This document shows positions 32,035 through 62,426 of a stretch of DNA of 64,000 bases, piece after piece; position 1 is the first letter of the stretch; each line of letters starts with the position of its first letter. Origin of the DNA: Pirellula sp. (GTDB lineage Bacteria; Planctomycetota; Planctomycetia; Pirellulales; PNKZ01); assembly GCA_013822735.1 (NCBI GenBank), contig PNKZ01000014.1, positions 62,001 through 126,000 on the forward strand. The letters are read 5' to 3'. The translations under genes were made by a program, and so were the position numbers. The notes beneath the pieces were generated by a model. That model saw only the letters and a list, made by a program, of their open reading frames with translations, did no database searches and was not told where the DNA came from.

Positions 32035-32107
32035 GGTCAGATAGCTCAGTTGGTAGAGCAATGGACTGAAAATCCATGTGTCCCCGGTTCGAGCCCGGGT
32101 CTGACCA
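32035..32107 (+). tRNA. tRNA-Phe (GAA), likely attachment side of the phage region
   Basis: A 73-nt cloverleaf. The acceptor is GGTCAGA/TCTGACC with discriminator A. The D arm is GCTC/GAGC, the anticodon loop CTGAAAA gives GAA, and the T arm is CCCGG-TTCGAGC-CCGGG. The genome changes character directly downstream, from host metabolic genes to phage regulators. tRNA 3' ends are common integration sites, so this is the probable left boundary. The matching right-hand repeat would be outside the window. Confidence 0.95.
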
Positions 32108-32198
32108 CTTGCAGAGTTCGTGAGTTCCAAACTCGGTCCTACCGGACCCTGCAAGGAAATGGCCCGCGCCACGTGCGCGGGTTGTTTTCGGTGTTCGT

Positions 32199-38488: not shown

Positions 38489-38541
38489 GCCCGTTCGGGC
38501 GGGTTCGGTTTGACAATGGACGCTCTTTTCGGTCAGACTGT

Positions 38542-38560
38542 GACCATCTAGAGCTATTCA
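38542..38560 (+). promoter_or_regulatory. phage 19-bp motif ahead of the cargo operon
   Basis: GACCATCTAGAGCTATTCA points into the ten-gene unit that starts at 38595. A TTGACA hexamer 33 nt upstream (38509-38514) has no -10 partner at 17 bp. Confidence 0.72.
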
Positions 38561-38594
38561 CGCTCAATCCCAACCAGTCAAGAGGGAGCCCGCC

Positions 38595-38936
38595 ATGTCG
38601 AACATTGCTCAGCCCGCCGGCGTTCTTACCAACCTGCAACTCGTCCGTTGGCTCTTGGCCCAGGGCGAGAAGGTTCCCGTCATCATCGGCTATTACGATG
38701 CGTTCCAGGCCGCGCCTACCGTACGCGCGAAGTGGTACGACGGCGTTCGCCCGACGGGCGATCTGCTCGTCGACGTGATCGACACGTTGCCGGACGTCTC
38801 GGCGAATGAAGTCGTGATCCTGGCCGACGTGCAGGCTCAAGCCGTCGCACTCGGTATCGATTGGGAGAAGCTCGTCGGCGTCGCCGAGAAGCTGCTGCCC
38901 ATCGTGCTCGACGTCGTGTTCCGCCTCCGGGGCTAA
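38595..38936 (+). CDS. hypothetical protein, first gene of the cargo operon
   Basis: A 113-residue soluble, mixed alpha/beta protein (LQLVRWLLAQGEKVPVIIGYYDAFQAAPTVRAKWYDG, ending in IVLDVVFRLRG). GAGGGAG lies upstream of ATG 38595. No family recognised. Stops 5 nt before the 25-residue membrane peptide gene. Confidence 0.6.
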   Translation: MSNIAQPAGVLTNLQLVRWLLAQGEKVPVIIGYYDAFQAAPTVRAKWYDGVRPTGDLLVDVIDTLPDVSANEVVILADVQAQAVALGIDWEKLVGVAEKLLPIVLDVVFRLRG

Positions 38937-38941
38937 CGCCC

Positions 38942-39019
38942 ATGCACGCGTTGGAAATGATCGGCTGGTTAGCCGTCCCCGTGTTTTTTTGGTGCCTTCT
39001 CACCGGAAGGTTTGAGTGA
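38942..39019 (+). CDS. 25-residue single-helix membrane peptide
   Basis: ATG 38942 encodes a peptide beginning MHALEMIGWLAVPVFFWC and ending TGRFE, one transmembrane helix. Its TGA shares the A of the next gene's ATG (TGATG at 39017-39021), so translation is tightly coupled to the subtilase. Confidence 0.5.
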   Translation: MHALEMIGWLAVPVFFWCLLTGRFE

Positions 39020-40068
39020 TGCAACCGTCGGAACCCATCTTCAACCTGCCGCCGTACGAAGCCCAACCGGTCGCAGCGTCTTCGCTTAGCGAGACGCTCG
39101 ACTGGTCGATTGCCTTTCTCGGCATCCCCGAGCTCTGGAAGCAAAGCGAAGGGGAAGGGGTCGTCGTCGCCGTGCTCGACACCGGATGCGACCTTGATCA
39201 TCCGGACTTGCAGGGCGCCGTGCTCGAGTCGGCCGACTTCTCCCGCTCCCTGTTCGGTGCGCTCGATCGGCAGGGACACGGCACGTGGTGCGCCGGCATG
39301 ATCGGCGCGCGGGCCAACGACGTCGGCGTGCGGGGCATCGCCCCCAAGTGCAAGCTGCTCATCGGCAAGGTGCTCGGCGACGACGGCAGCGGCTCGGAAG
39401 ACGCCATCCTCAAGGGCATCCGATGGGCCGAAGCTCGGGGAGCGCACATCATCAGCATGTCGCTCGGCGGTCCGCGCATGAGCGAGACGTTGCACGCCGC
39501 CATCAAGGCGTTCGTGTCCAAGCCGCATCGATTCGTCATCTGCGCCGCCGGCAACGACGGCCGCGACAACGCCGTGAACTTTCCCGCCAAGTGGGAAGAG
39601 ACGGTCGCCGTCGCAGCCGTCGACGAACGTGGAAAGCTCACGTCGTTCTCGAGCCGCGGTCCGGAAGTCGACATCGCTGCGCCGGGAGCGAACATGCTTT
39701 CGACCGTGCCGATGCTGGCCGGCGGATACGCAAAGCTCAGCGGCACCAGTATGGCGACCCCCGTCGTCGCCGGTATCGCCGCGGCCTGCCTCTCCAAGCA
39801 TTTGAAGGAGGGGGGGCTTACCGGCTTGGAGACGTACCAAGACCTGCTCGCCCACCTACGCAAGACGGCGCGGGACGCCGGTCCGCAGGGGCCGGATACG
39901 GGCTACGGCTACGGCATCATCGATCCGGGGAAGCTGCTGACGGCGATCGCGCCGGCCACGCCGCCCGTGACGCCGACGCCGGAAGGGCCCGACGTGCAGG
40001 TGACGGCGCGGGATGCCAAGGGGCAGATGTGGTTTTCAACGAAAATCGATTGGAAACGGGCGAGCTAG
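39019..40068 (+). CDS. subtilisin-like serine peptidase (S8)
   Basis: A 349-residue subtilase with a complete catalytic set: Asp54 in AVLDTGCDLDHPDL, His87 in GHGTWCAGM, the oxyanion Asn179 in CAAGNDG, and Ser244 in LSGTSMATPVVAG. No signal peptide or pro-domain is evident, though it is coupled to a membrane peptide gene. Phage subtilases can serve in maturation, lysis or attack on host proteins; which applies is not readable here. It lies in one operon with a cysteine peptidase and a di-haem peroxidase. Confidence 0.93.
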   Translation: MQPSEPIFNLPPYEAQPVAASSLSETLDWSIAFLGIPELWKQSEGEGVVVAVLDTGCDLDHPDLQGAVLESADFSRSLFGALDRQGHGTWCAGMIGARANDVGVRGIAPKCKLLIGKVLGDDGSGSEDAILKGIRWAEARGAHIISMSLGGPRMSETLHAAIKAFVSKPHRFVICAAGNDGRDNAVNFPAKWEETVAVAAVDERGKLTSFSSRGPEVDIAAPGANMLSTVPMLAGGYAKLSGTSMATPVVAGIAAACLSKHLKEGGLTGLETYQDLLAHLRKTARDAGPQGPDTGYGYGIIDPGKLLTAIAPATPPVTPTPEGPDVQVTARDAKGQMWFSTKIDWKRAS

Positions 40069-40069
40069 C

Positions 40070-40516
40070 GTGACTCGTAATTGGAATGCAATCCCGAAGC
40101 AGACGTTCCTTGTCGAAGACGGCAAGATCGGCGACTGTTGGCGCTGTTGCATAGCGGCGGTGCTGGGCCTGCCCGCAGAAATGGTTCCGCACTTCCTAAT
40201 GAAAGACGACGGCACGCACAACCATGAATGCGATGCCGACACACAGCTCTGGCTTTGTGAGCGAGGCTATCGAATCACCTACGCCAATTCTTTTGGTGGC
40301 GCACGCGAAGCATTGTGGTTTCCGCGGTGGTCGTCGTCGCCGATTGATCCGCCTGTACCATTGATTGGCGTAGGGCCTACACAGCGATCAAAGGGACTTG
40401 GCAAGCATCATGCGGTCGTAATGATCGACGGAAAAATCGTATACGACCCGCATCCTAGCGAGGCCGGGCTCACCGCGATCATCGAACAGTATTTGATTTT
40501 CAAACCGGTCGAATAG
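40070..40516 (+). CDS. papain-like cysteine peptidase (C39-like), phage
   Basis: A 148-residue protein from GTG 40070, one base after the subtilase stop. Seen: catalytic Cys23 in IGDCWRCCIAAVLGLP, His114 in GKHHAVVMIDGK, and the following Asp126 in VYDPHP. This is the order of papain-fold peptidases, and phages carry a short family of this type. A transglutaminase-like activity is the alternative. No signal peptide. Confidence 0.78.
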   Translation: MTRNWNAIPKQTFLVEDGKIGDCWRCCIAAVLGLPAEMVPHFLMKDDGTHNHECDADTQLWLCERGYRITYANSFGGAREALWFPRWSSSPIDPPVPLIGVGPTQRSKGLGKHHAVVMIDGKIVYDPHPSEAGLTAIIEQYLIFKPVE

Positions 40517-40527
40517 AAAGCAAGTCA

Positions 40528-40749
40528 ATGAACTGGTTCGTCATACTCGTCGCGATCGGATTCGGTATTGCACGACTTACGATGCCCGTCGTTTCCGAAG
40601 TGCATCGCGAAGACTTGTTCAAGGATTTTGCCCACCTATTCGTCGGCGCGATGTTTGGTGCAGGAATCGCTGGTCGTCGTAGTTGCCTGTGGATCGGCAT
40701 CGCCCTAACCGTGCTGGAAGTGGTCGCGTTCATCATGCACAAGGCGTAA
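40528..40749 (+). CDS. small membrane protein, holin-like size
   Basis: A 73-residue protein with two or three helices (WFVILVAIGFGIARLTM, FVGAMFGAGIAG, LWIGIALTVLEVVAFIM). The size and topology allow a holin, but there is no diagnostic sequence. It is part of the cargo operon. Confidence 0.6.
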   Translation: MNWFVILVAIGFGIARLTMPVVSEVHREDLFKDFAHLFVGAMFGAGIAGRRSCLWIGIALTVLEVVAFIMHKA

Positions 40750-40754
40750 TTCTC

Positions 40755-40910
40755 ATGTGGGTTTCTTTCGTCTGCGGAATTTTCGGTATTGGATGTTTTT
40801 GTGCTTCTGTGAGCGGCATCGGCATCGACTCAGATCGGCCGAACCGCAGGCTGCTCTTAGCATCCATTGTTCTAGTTGCATTCGCTGCGGTGATTGCGGA
40901 CGCGACTTAA
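40755..40910 (+). CDS. 51-residue membrane protein
   Basis: Two helices (WVSFVCGIFGIGCFCASVSGIG and LLLASIVLVAFAAVIA) around a short DSDRPNRR loop. ATG 40755 is 5 nt after the previous stop. Its role is unknown. Confidence 0.5.
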   Translation: MWVSFVCGIFGIGCFCASVSGIGIDSDRPNRRLLLASIVLVAFAAVIADAT

Positions 40911-40921
40911 CGAGCCATTCC

Positions 40922-41068
40922 ATGATTCAATCGCTGACGCACTTCTGGCGATGGTTCATCGTCGACGCGACGCCGGTAATTCTCGCATGGCTCACGATTC
41001 CACTTGCCTTGTTGCTGGTCGTAATCATTGCGTTCTTGGTGTGGGTCACGCACGTTGATTGGAGATAG
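40922..41068 (+). CDS. 48-residue single-helix membrane protein
   Basis: One long helix (VILAWLTIPLALLLVVIIAF) with short polar ends. It lies 4 nt before the peroxidase gene and may assist its export or haem delivery, but that is a guess from position only. Confidence 0.5.
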   Translation: MIQSLTHFWRWFIVDATPVILAWLTIPLALLLVVIIAFLVWVTHVDWR

Positions 41069-41072
41069 TTCC

Positions 41073-42059
41073 GTGTACGCTCTAATCCTTGCGGCCTTAA
41101 TTGCCGCCGCCCCCCCGCAACAATCCGGCCCGCAAGGCATTCCGCCGACGGGCACTGAAATCGAGCTTGGTCGCAAGCTGTTCTTTGAACCGCTCTTGTC
41201 GGTCGACGGAACCGTGTCGTGCGCGTCGTGTCACAATCCGTCGAAGGGCTGGGCGGACGGCTTGCCGCTGGCCGTAGGCATCAACGGGCAAGTCGGGACG
41301 CGTCACTCGCCGACGATCATCAACGCGAGCTATTCGCCGCTCATGTTTTGGGACGGCCGCACCGTGGCCCCCATCACGCAGGCGCTGTTGCCGCTTTCGA
41401 ACCCGATCGAAATGGGGCGGCAGTCGGAAGACGACGTCGTGCGTAAGCTGCGGCTCCTGCCGGAATACGTGTCGGACTTCGCCCGGGTGTACGGCGTCGA
41501 CACGACGAGCTTGAGCCCGGTAACGGGCGTGCGTCTCGCCCGCGCGATTGCGGCGTTCGAAACGACGATCGTCAGTTTCAACGCCCCGATCGATCGCCGA
41601 CTTGACGGCGACGTAACGGCGCTGACGCCGGATGCGGAGATCGGCTTTCAGCTCTTTCGCCAGGCCAATTGCATGAGCTGCCACACGCCGCCGCTCTTTA
41701 CCGACAACTTGATGCACAACAACGGCATGGAATACGCCGGCAAGCTCCAAGTGTCGGACCTCGGCCGCGCCGGAATTCTGCCGCAGAATCAACGCACGGC
41801 GCAGAATATTCGCGCCTTCAAGACTCCGCACCTGCGGGAGATCCATCGCACGGCGCCGTACAACCACGCCGGCAACTTTGCAGACCTTGATCGTGTCATC
41901 CTTCACTACGCGACGGGCGGTGCGCGGTATGACGACACGTTCGATCGGTTTATTGATCCGCGAGTCCGAGCAATTCGTACGCTCGGGTGGACCGCCGAAC
42001 AGCGCGGTTACTTGCGGACGTTCATCCTCGAATCGTTTAAGGGAAGCCCGTCCCCATGA
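41073..42059 (+). CDS. di-haem cytochrome c peroxidase (CCP/MauG family)
   Basis: A 328-residue exported protein from GTG 41073, with GGAG 8 nt upstream. It has a short signal (ALILAALIAAA) and two haem-c sites, CASCH at 50-54 and CMSCH at 200-204. The family segments RHSPTIINASYSPLMFWDGR and PYNHAGNFADLDRVILHY are also present. It would reduce peroxide or modify proteins in the periplasm and needs host cytochrome c maturation. I know of no well-described phage example, so its place among phage genes is unusual. The stop overlaps the next start (ATGA). Confidence 0.92.
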   Translation: MYALILAALIAAAPPQQSGPQGIPPTGTEIELGRKLFFEPLLSVDGTVSCASCHNPSKGWADGLPLAVGINGQVGTRHSPTIINASYSPLMFWDGRTVAPITQALLPLSNPIEMGRQSEDDVVRKLRLLPEYVSDFARVYGVDTTSLSPVTGVRLARAIAAFETTIVSFNAPIDRRLDGDVTALTPDAEIGFQLFRQANCMSCHTPPLFTDNLMHNNGMEYAGKLQVSDLGRAGILPQNQRTAQNIRAFKTPHLREIHRTAPYNHAGNFADLDRVILHYATGGARYDDTFDRFIDPRVRAIRTLGWTAEQRGYLRTFILESFKGSPSP

Positions 42060-42862
42060 TTCGCCGCACTATCTCCGTCATCGGCTCGTTGGTTTGTCTA
42101 GCCGGGCTCTCGCTCGGCGTGATTCATTTGTGGCATTCCGGTTGGCTCGATCGCCTGATGCCGACGCCGCGCGTCGCCGCACCGGTCAGCATCGACTTGT
42201 TCGGCCCGAAGGAATGTCTCGCCGGCGGCGAACACTTCTTTCATGTCGAAGTCGACGGCCCGGCGGGCGACGTGCAATGGGAGTTGATACCCGACGTGCC
42301 CGGCGCGCTGACGCCGTCGTTCGACAAGCGGAAAGCCCGCTTCCAATCCGTCGAGCCGGGGCTCTATATCGTGACGACTCGAGTCGCCGGAGACGGCCGC
42401 CAAGTCGCGTCGAGCTACATCGAGTTCGACAATCTGCTCGTGCAAGAGGAAGCGGACGAGCCGCCGGCCGAACCGCAGCCGATTTTCGACCTTGAATCGA
42501 TCAAGGCGATGATGGCGCCGCAGGCCCCCCCCGTGCCGACGATCGCCGAACTGGTACGGCATTCGCTTGAGCAAGTGAATAGTGCGAATCAGGTCGAGGA
42601 AGCGCACCGCATCGCGGGCATTATCAAATCGATCATCAATCGGGTGACGACCGGCCTCATTGCTCCCGACGTCGACGTGACATTGGAGTTGGAATCGCAG
42701 CTCGAACTTGCTCTTGGCGAACACGCTCGCCCGTGGGGCCTCTTCATTGCGGATCTTCGGGCCATCATCGGCAACTTGCGCGATCAGGGTCACATCACTA
42801 CAGCCGCTTCCACCGTGCCGACGCTCACGGAGATCGCGGCCGCACTTTCCAGCGTCCACTAG
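42056..42862 (+). CDS. membrane-anchored Ig/PKD-like exported protein
   Basis: A 268-residue protein with an N-terminal signal anchor (ISVIGSLVCLAGLSLGVIHLW). It has an Ig-like beta domain (about 43-130: ECLAGGEHFFHVEVDGPAGDVQWELIP...GLYIVTTRVAGDG) and a helical C-terminal half (about 160-268). Translationally coupled to the peroxidase gene, so it may be its periplasmic partner. No family name can be given. Confidence 0.65.
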   Translation: MIRRTISVIGSLVCLAGLSLGVIHLWHSGWLDRLMPTPRVAAPVSIDLFGPKECLAGGEHFFHVEVDGPAGDVQWELIPDVPGALTPSFDKRKARFQSVEPGLYIVTTRVAGDGRQVASSYIEFDNLLVQEEADEPPAEPQPIFDLESIKAMMAPQAPPVPTIAELVRHSLEQVNSANQVEEAHRIAGIIKSIINRVTTGLIAPDVDVTLELESQLELALGEHARPWGLFIADLRAIIGNLRDQGHITTAASTVPTLTEIAAALSSVH

Positions 42863-42895
42863 ATGGTTTCGTTTCTCTGTTTTTTGGAGGTTCCC

Positions 42896-43429
42896 ATGCG
42901 AGGTTTCGTGTCGTTTGTTTTGGCGTCCGTCGTGGCGCTGTCGGCCTGCCTGTTGAGTACGGACACGGCGAGTGCTCAGGGTTGCAATGTGAATAGCAAT
43001 GCGAACGCCGCCGCTTCGGCCAACAGTGCCGCCGCTTTGCAGAATCAGGCGATCTTGCAACAGCTTTCGTTGCTGCAAAATCAGCAGCGAGCGGTGACGA
43101 GCGCCGCCGTGGCCGCACCGCCGCGGATCGTCTCGGTGCCGATCGTTCAGGCTCCGTCTGTTGCGAGCGCCAGCGCCGCGGCTACCGCAGGAAGTTTTGC
43201 CGTCCCGGCTCCGGCCGTCGACTCTGTTGCGCTCGCCCAGGCTTTGGCGACGATTCAATCGTTGAGCGTATCTCCCTTAGCGACGGTGCAAGCCGTCGGC
43301 GGAAGTTGCAGCGTCAGCCGCAGCCGAAGTCTGGCGGTGAGTCGCAACAGCGTGGCGCCACTGGCTCGAATCGCCTCACTGGCGCCGTCGCGTAGCGTGG
43401 CTCGCAGCCGTAGCGTCACGCGAAACTGA
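42896..43429 (+). CDS. exported Ala/Ser/Gln-rich low-complexity protein
   Basis: A 177-residue protein from ATG 42896 with GGAGG upstream. It has a signal peptide (GFVSFVLASVVALSACLLSTDTASAQ), then an Asn/Ala/Gln-rich segment (NSNANAAASANSAAALQNQ) and Ala/Val-rich repeats. A striking Ser-Arg tail follows (SVSRSRSLAVSRNS, SRSVARSRSVTRN). It is likely a surface or fibre-like protein; function unknown. Last gene of the operon, 45 nt before a terminator. Confidence 0.65.
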   Translation: MRGFVSFVLASVVALSACLLSTDTASAQGCNVNSNANAAASANSAAALQNQAILQQLSLLQNQQRAVTSAAVAAPPRIVSVPIVQAPSVASASAAATAGSFAVPAPAVDSVALAQALATIQSLSVSPLATVQAVGGSCSVSRSRSLAVSRNSVAPLARIASLAPSRSVARSRSVTRN

Positions 43430-43474
43430 TCGACCCGTTCGAGCGCCCGAAGCGGTTGGTTTCTATTCACTTTC

Positions 43475-43511
43475 AGCCGTAGCGACTTGCCCGAGTCGCT
43501 ACGGCTCTTTC
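43475..43511 (+). terminator. terminator closing the cargo operon
   Basis: A perfect 13-bp stem (43475-43487 with 43494-43506), loop TGCCCG, then CTTTCC. It ends transcription 45 nt after the Ala/Ser-rich gene. Confidence 0.7.
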
Positions 43512-43530: not shown

Positions 43531-43845
43531 ATGACCGAGCAAGAAATGCTGTCCAAGATCGCCGAAGACGTCGGCCATTTGCGAGCGACGAACGAGTTCT
43601 TTTGCGATCGATTGGAGCGGCACGAGACGGCCCTGTTCGGAAACAATAACGAACCGGGGCTGGCGACACGATTGAGCGTCGTCGAGGGGGACACGAAGTC
43701 CCTCAAGGATGCCGACCAGAAACTTGCCGCCGCACACGATGCGGCTCGTACCGCTTGGTACACCACGGCAACCTCGATCGCCGTCTGCGTCGTGACAGGA
43801 ATCTTCGGTTTGCTGACCGTGATATTTTCAAACAAGCCCCATTAG
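43531..43845 (+). CDS. coiled-coil plus C-terminal membrane helix protein (XhlA-like)
   Basis: A 104-residue protein from ATG 43531 with GGAG upstream. It has an amphipathic helical N-terminal half (MLSKIAEDVGHLRATNEFFCDRLERHETAL) and a C-terminal helix (TATSIAVCVVTGIFGLLTVIF). The layout matches phage hemolysin XhlA/holin-associated proteins, but size and topology are the only evidence. Confidence 0.6.
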   Translation: MTEQEMLSKIAEDVGHLRATNEFFCDRLERHETALFGNNNEPGLATRLSVVEGDTKSLKDADQKLAAAHDAARTAWYTTATSIAVCVVTGIFGLLTVIFSNKPH

Positions 43846-43860
43846 CCCCAGGCCCGACCG

Positions 43861-44346
43861 ATGACCGAACAAGCCCCCGTCCGTGAAGACATTCCGTTTC
43901 CCAATGGTATCGCGGCCGTGCCGCTCGCTCCGGCGTTTCAACCGCAGGCTGCGCTCGTACCGCCGCCGATCGAGGCGATTGACCCGCGGCTACTGGCTGG
44001 CGCCGTGCCGGTGACTGATCACGGCGAACCGTCCCCCGGTGCGAACGGTCCGGCGAGCCCGGCCGCTGCGGCGTTTCAATCGTTGCTGCAGGAGAACGCT
44101 GCGACGTACGAATGGACCGCCGAGAAGCTCTTCGAGCTGATCCGCAACGCGCGGGACTTGCCGTACGATCGGCTGATGACTGGTGCGGAAATGGTGGTCG
44201 AGCTGGCGTCGCTGCTCGTCGCCGATGCCGCCAAGTCCGGCAAGCCGATCGACTTTGCGACGGCGCTCCGCTCGATTCACCGGATCTCCGGTATGCTCTC
44301 GCAGCGCCCCAATGAGTTCGCCGCTCTGACGACGATGTTCGGCTAG
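43861..44346 (+). CDS. hypothetical phage protein
   Basis: A 161-residue protein with a Pro/Ala-rich disordered N-terminal half and a helical C-terminal domain (about 75-160: TYEWTAEKLFELIRNARDLPYDRLMTGAEMV...). It overlaps the tail-to-tail serine recombinase stop by 4 nt. No family recognised. Confidence 0.6.
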   Translation: MTEQAPVREDIPFPNGIAAVPLAPAFQPQAALVPPPIEAIDPRLLAGAVPVTDHGEPSPGANGPASPAAAAFQSLLQENAATYEWTAEKLFELIRNARDLPYDRLMTGAEMVVELASLLVADAAKSGKPIDFATALRSIHRISGMLSQRPNEFAALTTMFG

Positions 44347-45275
44347 GCCGCGCCGTTTTGCCTGCGTCGCCGTCGGGTGCGCTTCACCATGGAGGCACCC
44401 GGCGGTAGCGTGGCCCATCCTGCCGTAAGCGCCTGCTCATAGGCGACGGCACACCGCTCGGGAGTCCAATAGAGCGGCGGCGTTGAGTTTCGCGTGCGAG
44501 GCCGGCGCCCTTCGGCGAGTGCGACTTCCGCTTCGATTGCCGTGCTGACGTTCTGCCAGGTAGCGACGGCCGGCGCGGGCAGGGAATGTCTGGCGGCAAT
44601 GATGCCCCGAATGACGCGTCGCTCGTCTTCGTCCGGTACCCACGTATTGTGCTGCGGCGACGTGCAACGGAAGCCGTATTGCTTGTTCTGATTGAGCGGT
44701 TGACCGGCCTGCCGCAACCCTTCCTTGATGTCGAGCGCCCGTTCGCTCTTGAGCGAGCTATCCAGCTCGGCCGCCGCCGCGAAGATGTGCATCGCGAAGC
44801 GGCCCATCGCCGTCGACGTGTCGATGTTCGACCCGTGGATGATCATCGAGATGCCGCGAGCTCGCCATTGCTCGTCCATCGCACAGGCGTCCCCCGTGTT
44901 TCGGAAGCAACGGTCGATGCGATAGAACCACACGAAGTCGCCCGGCTTGAGGACCATGTTCAAGCGGATCGCCGCCGGCCGTTGCAGAAACTTGAGCTTC
45001 CAAGCGGACTTGCTCAGGTCCATGAACACGCCGTCGTCGCGCTCTTTGTCGAGGCGCATCCGCATGCCCTGGTTGTCGCGGCGCACGAAGCCCCGCTCGT
45101 CGAGGTCGGGCCCGCCTTGCCAACCGACGCGGCCGATTTCGATGTCGGCCAGTTTGCCGGCGCCCTTCTCGTAATCGAACCACCGCTTGAACTGCTCGTG
45201 CTGCACTTCGGGGCTGATGCCGCTGGCGGCACTATCGCGATGACTCACGCGAAGATACGGGTAGATGTACGGCAT
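44343..45275 (-). CDS. serine recombinase (resolvase/integrase family)
   Basis: A 310-residue recombinase. The N-terminal resolvase domain (1-about 165) has PYLRVSHRDSAASGISPEVQ with catalytic Ser11, DRCFRNTGDACAMDEQ (equivalent of DRLxRN) and GRFAMHIFAAAAELDSSLKSER. A recombinase-type domain follows (about 175-300). No long large-serine-integrase tail is present. It may be the phage integrase or an invertase; no tyrosine integrase is seen in the window. Minus strand, facing the cargo side. Confidence 0.88.
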   Translation of the reverse strand: MPYIYPYLRVSHRDSAASGISPEVQHEQFKRWFDYEKGAGKLADIEIGRVGWQGGPDLDERGFVRRDNQGMRMRLDKERDDGVFMDLSKSAWKLKFLQRPAAIRLNMVLKPGDFVWFYRIDRCFRNTGDACAMDEQWRARGISMIIHGSNIDTSTAMGRFAMHIFAAAAELDSSLKSERALDIKEGLRQAGQPLNQNKQYGFRCTSPQHNTWVPDEDERRVIRGIIAARHSLPAPAVATWQNVSTAIEAEVALAEGRRPRTRNSTPPLYWTPERCAVAYEQALTAGWATLPPGASMVKRTRRRRRQNGAA

Positions 45276-56954: not shown

Positions 56955-57395
56955 TCAGTTTCGGCTCGCCTCGACGGCGAATGTGGTCGGGGTTTCCGGG
57001 CCGGTGGTTTCGTCGACCGTCTTCGCCGCGGCGGGCGGGTTGGCTTCCGGCTCTTGCTGTTGGCCGCCGACGATGCAGCCCATGACTTCGCAAGATCTTC
57101 CGAGGACGTAGGTTACGGTGCCGACTTTGATCTCCATCAGGTTCGCCAAGGGGGCGAAAACGACGACGTCGCCAACCTTGTGATCCATGGCGATCATCTG
57201 GCCAAACGGGCTCGTATTGCCCGGTCCGGCGAGGATGACGGGGCCCGACACGGTCGGCGCTCGCGATCCGTTCGGCAGGAAGATGCCCCCTTGAGTGCGG
57301 CCCGGCGCCTCGATCGGCTTGACCAGCAAGTAGTCATGCGAGGGGACAAAGCCTTCGCCTTCGTTGGTCAGTTCGAGCAAGATGTTTCGGGCCAT
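56955..57395 (-). CDS. GroES-like co-chaperonin, phage-encoded
   Basis: A 146-residue Cpn10-like protein. After a short N-terminal lead it has HDYLLVKPIEAPGRTQGGIFLPNG, which covers the GroES start and the mobile-loop region (GGIFLP). Then come VILAGPGN, MDHKVGDVVVFAP and VTYVLGRSCEVMGCI (roof and C-terminal strands). The Pro/Glu/Thr tail (about 112-146) is extra. It would act as lid for the host GroEL, as phage Gp31 does for capsid folding. ATG at 57395 was chosen; an in-frame upstream start is possible. Confidence 0.82.
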   Translation of the reverse strand: MARNILLELTNEGEGFVPSHDYLLVKPIEAPGRTQGGIFLPNGSRAPTVSGPVILAGPGNTSPFGQMIAMDHKVGDVVVFAPLANLMEIKVGTVTYVLGRSCEVMGCIVGGQQQEPEANPPAAAKTVDETTGPETPTTFAVEASRN

Positions 57396-57437
57396 CGCGT
57401 TCTCCGGAGTCAAGGGCTAGGGGGTCTAGGTAGGCGC

Positions 57438-58573: not shown

Positions 58574-59287
58574 CTAACGGGCGCTGTTGAGGTAGTGCCT
58601 CTGTAGCAGCTTCCGCAGTTGCTCTCTCGCCTTAAGTTCAAGCTGACGGACTCGTTCGCGCGTAACGCCCAACGCGAAACCGATCTGCTCGAGCGTGCGG
58701 TTTTCGAGTCGCAAGCTGATGATCACCCACAGACGGCCGCGGAGCTGGTTGACCGCGGCGTTGAACTCTTCGAGCGTCGGGCCGTCTTCCGACTTACCGT
58801 CGAACTCGCGAAACGCGATCTCTTGGCCGATGGTCGGGAAGTCGTCGCCGGATCCGTCGGCCGAACTCCAATCGGTGGACAGCGCGCGGTGACGTGCGGC
58901 GGCGACGGCCTTCTTGACTCCTTCGCCCGCCTTGCCGCTCGTCACTCGGCAATGAGCGCAGGCCGGAACGCGCACCACGCCGCATTGCTCGCCGGCCCAA
59001 CGCGATACCTTGTGCTTGACGGCGACCACGGCGTAGGTGCTCAATCTTCCGCCGTTGAAGTCGTATTGTTTGATCGAATAGAGCCACGCTTCTACGGCAA
59101 CGCTCAGGCATTCCTCGACGGTAAAACCGTAGCGACGCGTGCGCCTCGTTGCTTGAATGATCAGCCCCATGTTCCGCTCGACGAGCGCGTTGCTCGCGGC
59201 GATGCGATCGGCCTCCGTCTCGGCGAAGTGCGCGCGGTTCAAGAGTTCGAGCTCTTCGGCTGCGGTGAGGAACGGCGCCTTGCTCAT
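58574..59287 (-). CDS. phage-encoded sigma-70 family RNA polymerase sigma factor
   Basis: A 237-residue sigma factor. Region 2 is visible in ALVERNMGLIIQATRRTRRYGFTVEECL... (about 35-100). A spacer of about 60 residues (about 110-175) follows. Region 4 is TLEQIGFALGVTRERVRQLELKAREQL, a full helix-turn-helix. Phages use such factors to redirect host polymerase to their own promoters. The start overlaps the upstream gene's stop (ATGA). Confidence 0.85.
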   Translation of the reverse strand: MSKAPFLTAAEELELLNRAHFAETEADRIAASNALVERNMGLIIQATRRTRRYGFTVEECLSVAVEAWLYSIKQYDFNGGRLSTYAVVAVKHKVSRWAGEQCGVVRVPACAHCRVTSGKAGEGVKKAVAAARHRALSTDWSSADGSGDDFPTIGQEIAFREFDGKSEDGPTLEEFNAAVNQLRGRLWVIISLRLENRTLEQIGFALGVTRERVRQLELKAREQLRKLLQRHYLNSAR

Positions 59288-60707: not shown

Positions 60708-62426
60708 ATGTTCCCGTCCGATCACAACGTGCCGACGTCCGCGATGCTTGGTTCCCCTGCCAGTCCCTTGCACGGCGGCACGCCCATGTCGCCGATCACG
60801 CCGGCCTCGAGCGGACCGCCGACGCTCAATCTCACGTTGCCGTCGGCACCCGCGCAGCAACAGTCGTTCGCTCCCGCGCAACAACAGCCGCAAGCTCCGA
60901 ACTATGCCGCGCAGCCCGGCGGGTTCAGCGGCTTCGCGCCGACGACGAGCGGCACGCCGATGCCGCCGGCTCAACCGCAGCAGCCGCAACCGCAGGCGCC
61001 GATGCCGCCCCTGGGCGGACCTTCCGCGGCGAACTTCAATCCGTACATGCAGCAACCGGCCGCGCCGCAAGTGCCGCAGTACGTCCAACAGCAGCCGCAA
61101 TCGCCGGTGCAGTATCCGCAACAGCCCCCGGTGCAATATCCGGCACAACTTCCCGCGCAGCCCCAAGTGCCGCAGTACGGTGCGCCGTACCTGCCGCAAC
61201 AACCCGCGCCGGCTACGGTCGTGCGCGACAGCATGGCCCGGCAAGGTTACGCCGTCGGCCATTACTCCAACGACAACGATCTCTTAGCCGATCTCGCCCA
61301 ACTCGCGCAGAGCGGTCAGAACGCGCAGCAGCAGCTCGCGTTGATGCAGGCTCAGGCCTCGCAGCAACCGGCGCCGCAACAACAGCAGCAGCAACCGGCG
61401 GGCGGCGCTCCGACGCAACCCGGCGCTCCGCAAGTCGAACAAGCTCCCGAGTGGGATCCGGCTTGGAATTCGCTCGTGCGGCAAGATCCGACGACCGGCG
61501 CTTACGTCCCGGCGAATATGTACGTCAGCCCGTTGGCCGCTCAGAAGGCGAACGAGTATCAGGCGTTCCGCCGTCGCCGCGCTGATCAGCTCGTCACCGA
61601 TCCGATGGGCGTCATCGGTCCGCAGATTGAGCAACGGCTCACGAAGATGCGCGACGACGTCAAGAAGGAAGTTCGCGCCGAGATCGTCACCGAGCAACGC
61701 CAGGCTCAGGCCGACGCGTTAATCACCGATTTCCTCAACAAGAACAAAGCGGCGTTCACGCAGATGGGGCCCGACGGCCGCACGCCGGCGATCGGCATCG
61801 ACGGCAAGGAAGTGCTCTCGCCGATGGGCCAGGCGTTTGCCTTCTACGCGAACAACTACAAGCAACAGTTCGTCGGCATCTACGGCCGCGAACCGGACCG
61901 GCTCGACATTTTGCGGCACACCGCCGAGAAGCTGCAAGCCGATCAAGCCGCCGGCCGCTTCGGTCCGCAGCAGCAACAGGTTCCCCCCGGTTATCCGCAG
62001 CAACCGCAGTTACCGGCGCCGCAACAGCAGGCATTCGTGCCGCAAGCGCCGCACTTGCAAATGTTCGGCTCGCCGCAACAGCCGTTCGGCGTCGCGCCGC
62101 AGCTTCCGTACGGCGCCGCACCGATGCAACCGGCGATGCCGCCGCTCGGCGGCGCGTCGATGGCCGGTTCCTTCATGCAGCCGCAGTACGCGCCGCAATT
62201 TCCTCAACCCGGATACGCGCCGCAACCAGGCTACGCGGATCCGCAGCAAACCATGGTCGCCCGCGCAATGGCGAACCAGGCGATGTACGCGCCGCAGCCC
62301 AACGGCACGATCGTCAACAACATGATGAACCCGCAGGTTCCTCAACAGCCGAGCACCGATCTCAAGTCCTTGTTTCAGCAGGCAGCCCAAGCCCGGGGTA
62401 TGTCGATCGACGGTTTTTCACAGTAG
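60708..62426 (+). CDS. Pro/Gln-rich scaffold-like phage protein
   Basis: A 572-residue protein with a low-complexity Pro/Gln/Ala N-terminal half (about 1-245). A charged helical core follows (about 250-420: MRDDVKKEVRAEIVTEQRQAQ...FYANNYKQQFVG), then a second Pro/Gln-rich half. Placed directly before the capsid gene, it fits a scaffolding or capsid-assembly role. A structural fibre is the alternative. ATG 60708 was chosen; the frame opens at 60612. Confidence 0.65.
   Translation: MFPSDHNVPTSAMLGSPASPLHGGTPMSPITPASSGPPTLNLTLPSAPAQQQSFAPAQQQPQAPNYAAQPGGFSGFAPTTSGTPMPPAQPQQPQPQAPMPPLGGPSAANFNPYMQQPAAPQVPQYVQQQPQSPVQYPQQPPVQYPAQLPAQPQVPQYGAPYLPQQPAPATVVRDSMARQGYAVGHYSNDNDLLADLAQLAQSGQNAQQQLALMQAQASQQPAPQQQQQQPAGGAPTQPGAPQVEQAPEWDPAWNSLVRQDPTTGAYVPANMYVSPLAAQKANEYQAFRRRRADQLVTDPMGVIGPQIEQRLTKMRDDVKKEVRAEIVTEQRQAQADALITDFLNKNKAAFTQMGPDGRTPAIGIDGKEVLSPMGQAFAFYANNYKQQFVGIYGREPDRLDILRHTAEKLQADQAAGRFGPQQQQVPPGYPQQPQLPAPQQQAFVPQAPHLQMFGSPQQPFGVAPQLPYGAAPMQPAMPPLGGASMAGSFMQPQYAPQFPQPGYAPQPGYADPQQTMVARAMANQAMYAPQPNGTIVNNMMNPQVPQQPSTDLKSLFQQAAQARGMSIDGFSQ

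Follow-up and report, generated by a model that had tools for sequence, protein, structure and literature searches.

A prophage gene unit of Pirellula sp. with a recurrent helical protein–subtilase pair and an unusual branch of phage di-haem peroxidases

Why does a prophage carry a subtilisin-like protease, a di-haem c-type peroxidase, and several tiny membrane proteins side by side in one compact gene unit? The question arises from a 64,000-nucleotide stretch of Pirellula sp. DNA, here called the window, which covers positions 62001–126000 of contig C14 (PNKZ01000014.1) in a host genome of 6.88 Mb and 38 contigs. Our literature searches found no described phage system of such composition, as the initial annotation of the locus had also stated. 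The unit is the site of a recurrent phage gene pair, encoding a helical protein (g1) and a subtilase, together with an unusual branch of phage peroxidases; it is not recent cargo, and its products are not all exported. As to its function, we propose, with a probability of about 0.42, that the unit is a candidate module for protease-based lysis or envelope breach, in which a latent protease would take the place of the endolysin.

The g1–subtilase pair and the phage peroxidase lineage

The subtilase is a member of the S8 family (Peptidase_S8, PF00082; E 7.7e-57), and its catalytic triad (D54, H87, and S244) is invariant in five aligned phage subtilases, which also keep an LPP[YF] segment. When a profile of three phage copies was compared with the PDB, intracellular subtilisins ranked first (7y6m and 7xr8), and the printed alignments set the phage LPPY onto LIPY or LIPF of these enzymes. 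In the available portion of a paper on intracellular subtilisins (PMC6220982), the LIPY/F motif of their pro-peptide, with the pattern [LVI]-[IFLV]-P-[YFH], is described as inhibiting the active site. The window subtilase has LPPY at the aligned position and does not contain the strict motif; it is therefore termed intracellular subtilisin-like (ISP-like) only. No export signal was seen by inspection and hydropathy in the subtilase or in the papain-like protein of the unit, and the subtilase looks cytosolic.

Relatives were collected by a viral scan with five phage subtilases, from which the best 80 of 435 were used, a top-ranked sample and not a census. The 87 loci compared comprise 81 viral-contig loci, the window, a locus designated L004, and four planctomycete genome loci. 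The g1 family lies directly upstream (position -1) of the subtilase in 34 of the 87 loci (33 viral ones and the window), or in 12 of 51 subtilase groups at 70% identity and 27 of 75 at 90%; the g1-bearing contigs often share flanking genes, so they are partly kin. The g1–subtilase couple is a recurrent phage gene pair, present in dozens of phage contigs, and g1, whose predicted model is confident and all-helical (predicted local distance difference test score, pLDDT, 86), is a new predicted helical family preceding phage subtilases. LPPY is present in 31 of the 34 subtilases having g1 at -1; over all 87 loci, LPPY or LPPF occurs in 37 and another LIPY-like motif in 15, with 13 not scorable. 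Four planctomycete genomes hold subtilases at 47–50% identity, in neighborhoods (L054–L057) that look chromosomal by eye and contain no g1 match.

Around the pair, a wider cassette recurs. A papain-like family, so named by eye, is found in 37/87 loci (12/51 groups at 70% identity and 29/75 at 90%), at +2 to +4 in 33 of the 37 and upstream at -3 or -5 in the other four. A conserved protein of ~135 residues is found in 33/87 loci (12/51 and 27/75 groups), with a hydrophobic N terminus in 22 of the 33, and both occur together with g1 in 28/87 loci. At position -1, 46/86 loci have a small membrane protein, a count that can include g1, and at +1, 30/87 do. The papain-like proteins of the window and of two other loci (L014 and L028) have no PDB sequence match, and the L028 member has no PHROGs match.

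The peroxidase of the unit belongs to CCP_MauG (PF03150; E 1.8e-48, 165.4 bits against a cut-off of 25.6) and has two CxxCH motifs. In the printed alignment with 2c1u it keeps W93, Q103, and E113, which we take to be the conserved functional Trp, Gln, and Glu positions of such peroxidases. The position of the 2c1u loop His (presumably the "H71 type") is occupied by Ile. Ile also replaces, beside a conserved His-Tyr, the Met in the C-terminal segment of 9qdt that we take to be a haem ligand, and the peroxidase is therefore assigned to no subtype. Of 50,697 phage records, only four match it, at 33.5%. Two are long Salmonella records carrying a di-haem peroxidase annotation; the other two are short and unannotated, and we take them for host DNA.

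The peroxidase gene is paired with a gene for an immunoglobulin (Ig)-like protein in four distinct phages, namely the window prophage, the IMG/VR contig G001, L013/L014 (identical over the 16,966 bases compared and counted once), and L063. The two genes overlap by four bases, as ATGA in the window and L014 and as GTGA in L063. In a midpoint-rooted tree of 71 rows, for which 67 of 70 cellular loci passed a 100-bit cut-off and the other three were left out, the four phage peroxidases form one clade (support 100/99, stem 1.35) next to 18 planctomycete rows (97/88), one of them a host copy, the joint group having support of 96/84; the program warns of long branches. With that caution, the tree indicates that the phage peroxidases are an old phage lineage, not a recent capture. 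The host genome itself has four more peroxidase matches, of which three are strong.

A phylum sample (391 other genomes) and a scan of the genome collection gave no match to the Ig protein, and none of 66 loci of related peroxidases in named genomes contained the Ig, Ala/Ser-Arg, subtilase, or g1 genes within ≤6 kb on each side. An ordinary chromosomal operon of the same genes, the finding by which the initial annotation had proposed to refute itself, was thus sought and not found, and this explanation was rejected. Two further ideas about the Ig protein were also discarded. Its fold search returned generic Ig-like folds, with an intracellular proteinase inhibitor (3isy) at rank 13 (E 3.2e-3); a role as inhibitor of the subtilase was rejected in view of the weak model (pLDDT 72), the membrane anchor, and L014, which has the Ig gene, yet no subtilase match within the 17 kb examined. 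Homology of its C-terminal part to the ~135-residue protein was rejected as well (hhalign probability 0.15%, E 0.39).

CxxCH proteins of a second kind, 484–632 residues long, are encoded at position +1 or +3 relative to the subtilase in L004, L058, L099, and L064, and the subtilase is paired with a haem-c-type protein of either kind in 7/87 loci. The single-CxxCH proteins of L058, L064, and L099 (505–632 residues) are homologous to the 484-residue protein of L004, which has no Pfam or PHROGs match. L004 is itself a second prophage, on contig C18 of the same host genome, with its own subtilase beside that protein.

The unit, its prophage, and a candidate operator

The ten plus-strand open reading frames (ORFs) of the unit span 38595–43429 with intergenic gaps of -4 to +33 bp, as called with a codon model in the present analysis (Table 1). 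The layout given by the initial annotation, ten genes running from an upstream motif to a terminator within a real prophage, is confirmed. Its "papain-like peptidase" is reduced to a likeness by eye: the 40070–40516 product matches phrog_5845, of unknown function (E 3.3e-24), has relatives in 39 phage records (26–35% identity in the 20 rows listed), and finds no Pfam family and no PDB sequence match at E ≤ 1.

Table 1. Features of the unit and its surroundings (window coordinates)
Feature	Position	Strand	Remarks
attL	32066..32110	+	3' end of tRNA-Phe; 45-bp exact repeat with partner beyond the window; delimits the prophage
TTGACA box	38510..38515	+	Putative promoter element; kept in G001 upstream of g1
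Operator-like 20-bp site	38541..38560	+	TGACCATCTAGAGCTATTCA; one of 10 sites in the window, all within the prophage
g1, 113 residues	38595..38936	+	Predicted all-helical; family placed directly 5' of phage subtilases
Single-span membrane peptide, 25 residues	38942..39019	+	G001 counterpart 46% identical
Subtilase (S8)	39019..40068	+	No signal peptide seen; N-terminal LPPY; nearest PDB entries are intracellular subtilisins
phrog_5845 protein	40070..40516	+	GTG start; resembles papain/C39 by eye; accessory gene, unmatched in G001
Membrane protein, 73 residues	40528..40749	+	Low-GC accessory block
Membrane protein, 51 residues	40755..40910	+	Low-GC accessory block
Membrane protein, 48 residues	40922..41068	+	Low-GC accessory block
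Di-haem c-type peroxidase (CCP_MauG)	41073..42059	+	Two CxxCH; GTG start; N terminus signal-like by eye
Ig-like protein	42056..42862	+	N-terminal membrane anchor; model (pLDDT 72) predicts an Ig-like sandwich and a helical C-terminal part
Ala/Ser-rich protein (Ala/Ser-Arg)	42896..43429	+	Hydrophobic N terminus; strongly basic Arg tail; computed isoelectric point 11.9
Intrinsic terminator	43475..43506	+	14-pair stem; -25.4 kcal/mol, z -7
104-residue protein	43531..43845	+	Hydrophilic N-terminal part, C-terminal membrane span; unmatched by sequence in G001
161-residue protein	43861..44346	+	Role unassigned; same strand as the unit
Serine recombinase (Resolvase domain)	44343..45275	-	Flanks the module; 47% match at the equivalent place in G001

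G001 (IMGVR_UViG_3300005680_000114, 68 kb) is largely colinear with the window prophage and has the same gene order: RuvC-like gene (36%), g1 (53%), 25-residue peptide (46%), subtilase (72%), peroxidase (87%), Ig (61%), and Ala/Ser-Arg protein (55%). It has no match to the papain-like gene and the three membrane proteins that follow, or to the 104- and 161-residue ORFs. The block 40070–41068 has a GC content of 0.51–0.55, and the 25-residue ORF one of 0.53, against 0.62–0.67 for the g1, subtilase, peroxidase, Ig, and Ala/Ser-Arg genes. We read the block as a later insertion; being low in GC and lacking in G001, it divides the unit into a core of six genes and an accessory block of four. The Ala/Ser-Arg proteins of the window, G001, and L014 have eight Arg/Lys and no Asp/Glu among their last 45 residues. 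ORFs with a membrane span and of a size similar to the 104-residue protein lie near the module in G001, L014, L027, L028, L058, and L063, and this protein is a likely further member of the unit; membership of the 161-residue protein is uncertain. In G001, an ORF with a hydrophobic N terminus (L005:10047-10547) lies between the peroxidase and Ig genes, and a RyR-domain-like ORF, by eye (L005:11367-11738), between the Ig and Ala/Ser-Arg genes. L028, like the window, has a resolvase-like ORF, as judged by eye.

Upstream of g1, the promoter scan did not list a promoter at the TTGACA box. At the place in G001 equivalent to the terminator hairpin, an inverted repeat is followed by T-rich sequence, as read by eye. 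The pattern YGACCATCTRGNNNYNKTCR occurs 10 times in the window (nine exact copies and one with a mismatch) against 0.03 expected, a figure to be read with the caution that the pattern had been fitted beforehand to sites already seen. All 10 sites lie between 34021 and 63596, inside the prophage. Copies precede the module (38541), the structural genes (60552), and leftward genes, their strand agreeing by coordinates with the direction of the following gene; three (34021, 52138, and 55809) fall within called ORFs. G001 has such a site at the equivalent place before the module and similar sites at several other matching places. The recurrence recalls the stoperators of mycobacteriophages, and the 20-bp site looks like a candidate prophage-wide operator. 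Because it is common to the unit and the structural genes, we infer that the unit is repressed together with the lytic genes; this suggests that the unit is silent in lysogeny through candidate repression at the operator-like site.

The phage context is real, as indicated by the tRNA-Phe repeat, the integrase, the head, terminase, and portal genes, and the colinear G001. The last 43 bases of the tRNA-Phe gene (32035–32108) and two more are repeated exactly at C14:145757-145801, and an integrase gene (phrog_1, E 6.6e-15) adjoins this right-hand copy. The ~51.7 kb between the repeat copies, a complete prophage, encode a major head protein (phrog_9953, 3e-08) and a terminase large subunit (phrog_2, 2e-11); the matches to portal (phrog_1216, 2e-04) and tail (phrog_584, 1.6e-04) proteins are weaker. 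Exact terminal repeats of 15 to 200 bases were tried for G001 and none was found; from gene order alone, this contig is inferred to be circularly permuted. The prophage also encodes a sigma-70-like factor (58574–59287, minus strand; phrog_351, Sigma70_r4; 48% match in G001), a GroES-like co-chaperonin (Cpn10; 56955–57413, minus strand; 35% match in G001), and, among the scanned proteins, a CsrA-family protein.

A possible route through the envelope and its alternatives

In several other phages, the module or its subtilase stands in a place compatible with lysis, near head, packaging, or lysis genes. L063 has, in order, a terminase-like ORF (by eye), a portal (Portal_Mu, PF06074; 31.6 bits against a cut-off of 23.9), the subtilase, an 84-residue membrane-span protein, the peroxidase, and the Ig protein; its terminase- and portal-like ORFs have no PDB sequence match. 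L014 has a Mu-F-like head gene, a g1-like ORF, a papain-like ORF (by eye), the peroxidase, Ig, and Ala/Ser-Arg genes, a membrane-span protein, and lastly an ORF that by eye resembles a prohead protease. In L004, a coil ORF and a g1-like ORF are followed by the subtilase, the haem-type protein, a terminase (1.2e-70), and a portal (2.5e-31). The g1-like ORFs of L014 and L004 are named by position only. A lysozyme directly follows the subtilase in L109 (PDB endolysin match, E 3.5e-23), and in L132 the subtilase stands two genes after an amidase (E 8.9e-18).

In the host genome, which is 99.06% complete, the transpeptidase, transglycosylase, and FtsW/RodA (SEDS) domains (PF00905, PF00912, and PF01098, respectively) were undetected, each of which was found in 10 of 14 control genomes; the host appears to be without the usual peptidoglycan polymerases and transpeptidases. 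In 50 prophage proteins Pfam recognized 14 families and no wall hydrolase, and it gave none for the singly scanned proteins, which include a set of ten with members of the unit, the head and integrase proteins being covered by PHROGs only and a few short ORFs lying outside the scan. No lysis family occurs among the 25 listed of the 39 PHROGs families for the prophage, and the small membrane proteins of the unit that were scanned (those other than the 25-, 51-, and 48-residue ORFs) match no holin family.

Here, we propose a mechanism for the unit as a lysis or envelope-breach module. Its genes would be off in the lysogen. After induction, the subtilase would accumulate in the cytosol as a latent zymogen until the g1 helix, the 25-residue peptide, and the 104-residue membrane-span protein breach or depolarize the inner membrane. 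The subtilase would thereby reach the periplasm and, as a substitute for a muralytic endolysin, cut envelope proteins. The Arg-tailed protein may loosen the outer membrane, for which disruptins, as presented in an accessible section of PMC12819732, offer an analogy. Mu gp25, a membrane-tethered accessory protein near the endolysin (according to part of PMC9239132), is a loose precedent for g1 and the membrane proteins. In the periplasm, the peroxidase and its Ig-anchored partner might oxidize envelope proteins or remove H2O2 as respiration fails; this role of the peroxidase is conjecture and the weakest link of the scheme. Doubtful, in our estimate, is the full version in which lysis does without a muralytic enzyme, g1 releases the latent subtilisin, the Ig-tethered peroxidase weakens the envelope, and the Arg-tailed protein opens the outer membrane.

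Several observations weigh against the lysis proposal. The module of the window, G001, and L028-type phages adjoins early-type genes and a recombinase, a position that weakens the proposal: the unit of the window and G001 follows a RuvC-like gene outside the structural operon, and the L028-type cassettes lie among small early-type ORFs. The related subtilases of Goe3, MTATph1, and SP-15 (Bacillus and Moorella phages) have mostly hypothetical neighbors and no annotated lysis gene within 4 kb, and only 2 of 140 neighbor representatives match muralytic families. The window g1 shows only a borderline hydrophobic helix, and its fold has no structural match at E ≤ 0.001 in the PDB or a viral library. 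The coil ORF of L004 has no predicted membrane span, and the membrane-span proteins of different loci are similar in architecture only. The papain-like and ~135-residue families of the wider cassette are unmatched in the window, only g1 and the subtilase being common. Among the 87 subtilases, 22 have no LIPY-like motif at all, in addition to those not scorable. As to the wall, the host genome has three Mur_ligase_M matches, several planctomycetes do possess peptidoglycan (stated in the consulted part of PMC4432640), and a planctomycete phage is released chronically, without lysis, in the excerpt available of PMC10945688.

The early-type surroundings would suit a unit for superinfection exclusion or surface remodeling, in which the peroxidase, Ig, and Arg-tailed proteins change the envelope of the infected cell and thereby bar other phages, and the protease trims surface or incoming phage proteins. 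Its products are membrane-anchored or signal-like, and turnover of the accessory block fits arms-race genes. We regard this explanation as unlikely: the operator-like site common with the structural genes speaks against expression in the lysogen, the module stands beside head or packaging genes in L063, L014, and L004, and the subtilase has no visible export signal. Another alternative is intracellular proteolysis, with an ISP-like subtilase that degrades or processes cytosolic host or phage proteins while the peroxidase and the exported proteins are passengers. The nearest solved structures are indeed intracellular subtilisins, and the related Bacillus and Moorella phage proteases lie away from annotated lysis genes; mere passengers, however, poorly explain the linkage to g1 (34/87) and to haem-c proteins (7/87), and the L004 phage has a match to a separate head maturation protease, on which the subtilase as sole prohead protease was also rejected. 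This explanation, too, is a doubtful one; both it and superinfection exclusion are nevertheless serious competitors of the lysis proposal.

Di-haem peroxidases reduce H2O2 in known bacteria, and the Trp, Gln, and Glu positions are kept in the printed alignment, so the peroxidase could be imagined as an antioxidant benefit to the host, with the neighboring surface genes, in lysogenic conversion or auxiliary metabolism. Auxiliary genes are reported in a planctomycete phage in the portion seen of PMC10945688. Such a role is very improbable, as the phage peroxidases are a single deep clade with no recent host capture, the host already has its own peroxidase matches, and the operator-like site suggests silence in the lysogen. 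With respect to the initial annotation, its label "cargo" is doubtful because the peroxidase is old in phages, the g1–subtilase pair recurs, and the operator-like site is shared with the structural genes. Its envelope-directed role, including a "lysis aid," is retained; an entirely exported set is unsupported because the subtilase looks cytosolic.

Comparison with known systems

The exit of phages from planctomycetes is hardly described, the single account that the literature search gave being one of chronic, non-lytic release (PMC10945688, in excerpt), and the unit is a concrete candidate for a lytic route out of these bacteria. If it is a lysis module, it would represent a protease-based alternative to endolysins, a handle on envelope cohesion, and a possible genetic tool. 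It brings together a new helical family, g1, placed directly before an ISP-like protease, and a haem-c peroxidase lineage kept by phages.

Elsewhere, phrog_5845 proteins of phages are of unknown function; the window member sits in the accessory block of the operon. With intracellular subtilisins (7y6m, 7xr8, and 2wv7), the phage subtilase shares the S8 triad, the lack of a visible signal peptide, and a segment aligned to LIPY/LIPF; it differs in having LPPY/LPPF, in being phage-borne, and in its linkage to g1. The peroxidase resembles the di-haem CcP/MauG family (PF03150) in its two CxxCH motifs and in W93, Q103, and E113, which match 2c1u, whereas the loop His and the 9qdt Met are replaced by Ile, the phage proteins form a clade of their own, and the partner is Ig-anchored. 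A further comparison is with the holin–endolysin–spanin or disruptin lysis cassettes, including the Mu lysis genes with the gp25 releasin. Like these, the unit encodes an enzyme without a visible export signal near small membrane proteins and a basic protein with a hydrophobic N terminus, and in some phages it lies beside head or packaging genes. Unlike them, it has a protease in place of the muralytic enzyme and contains a haem peroxidase, and in the window it stands apart from the structural operon.

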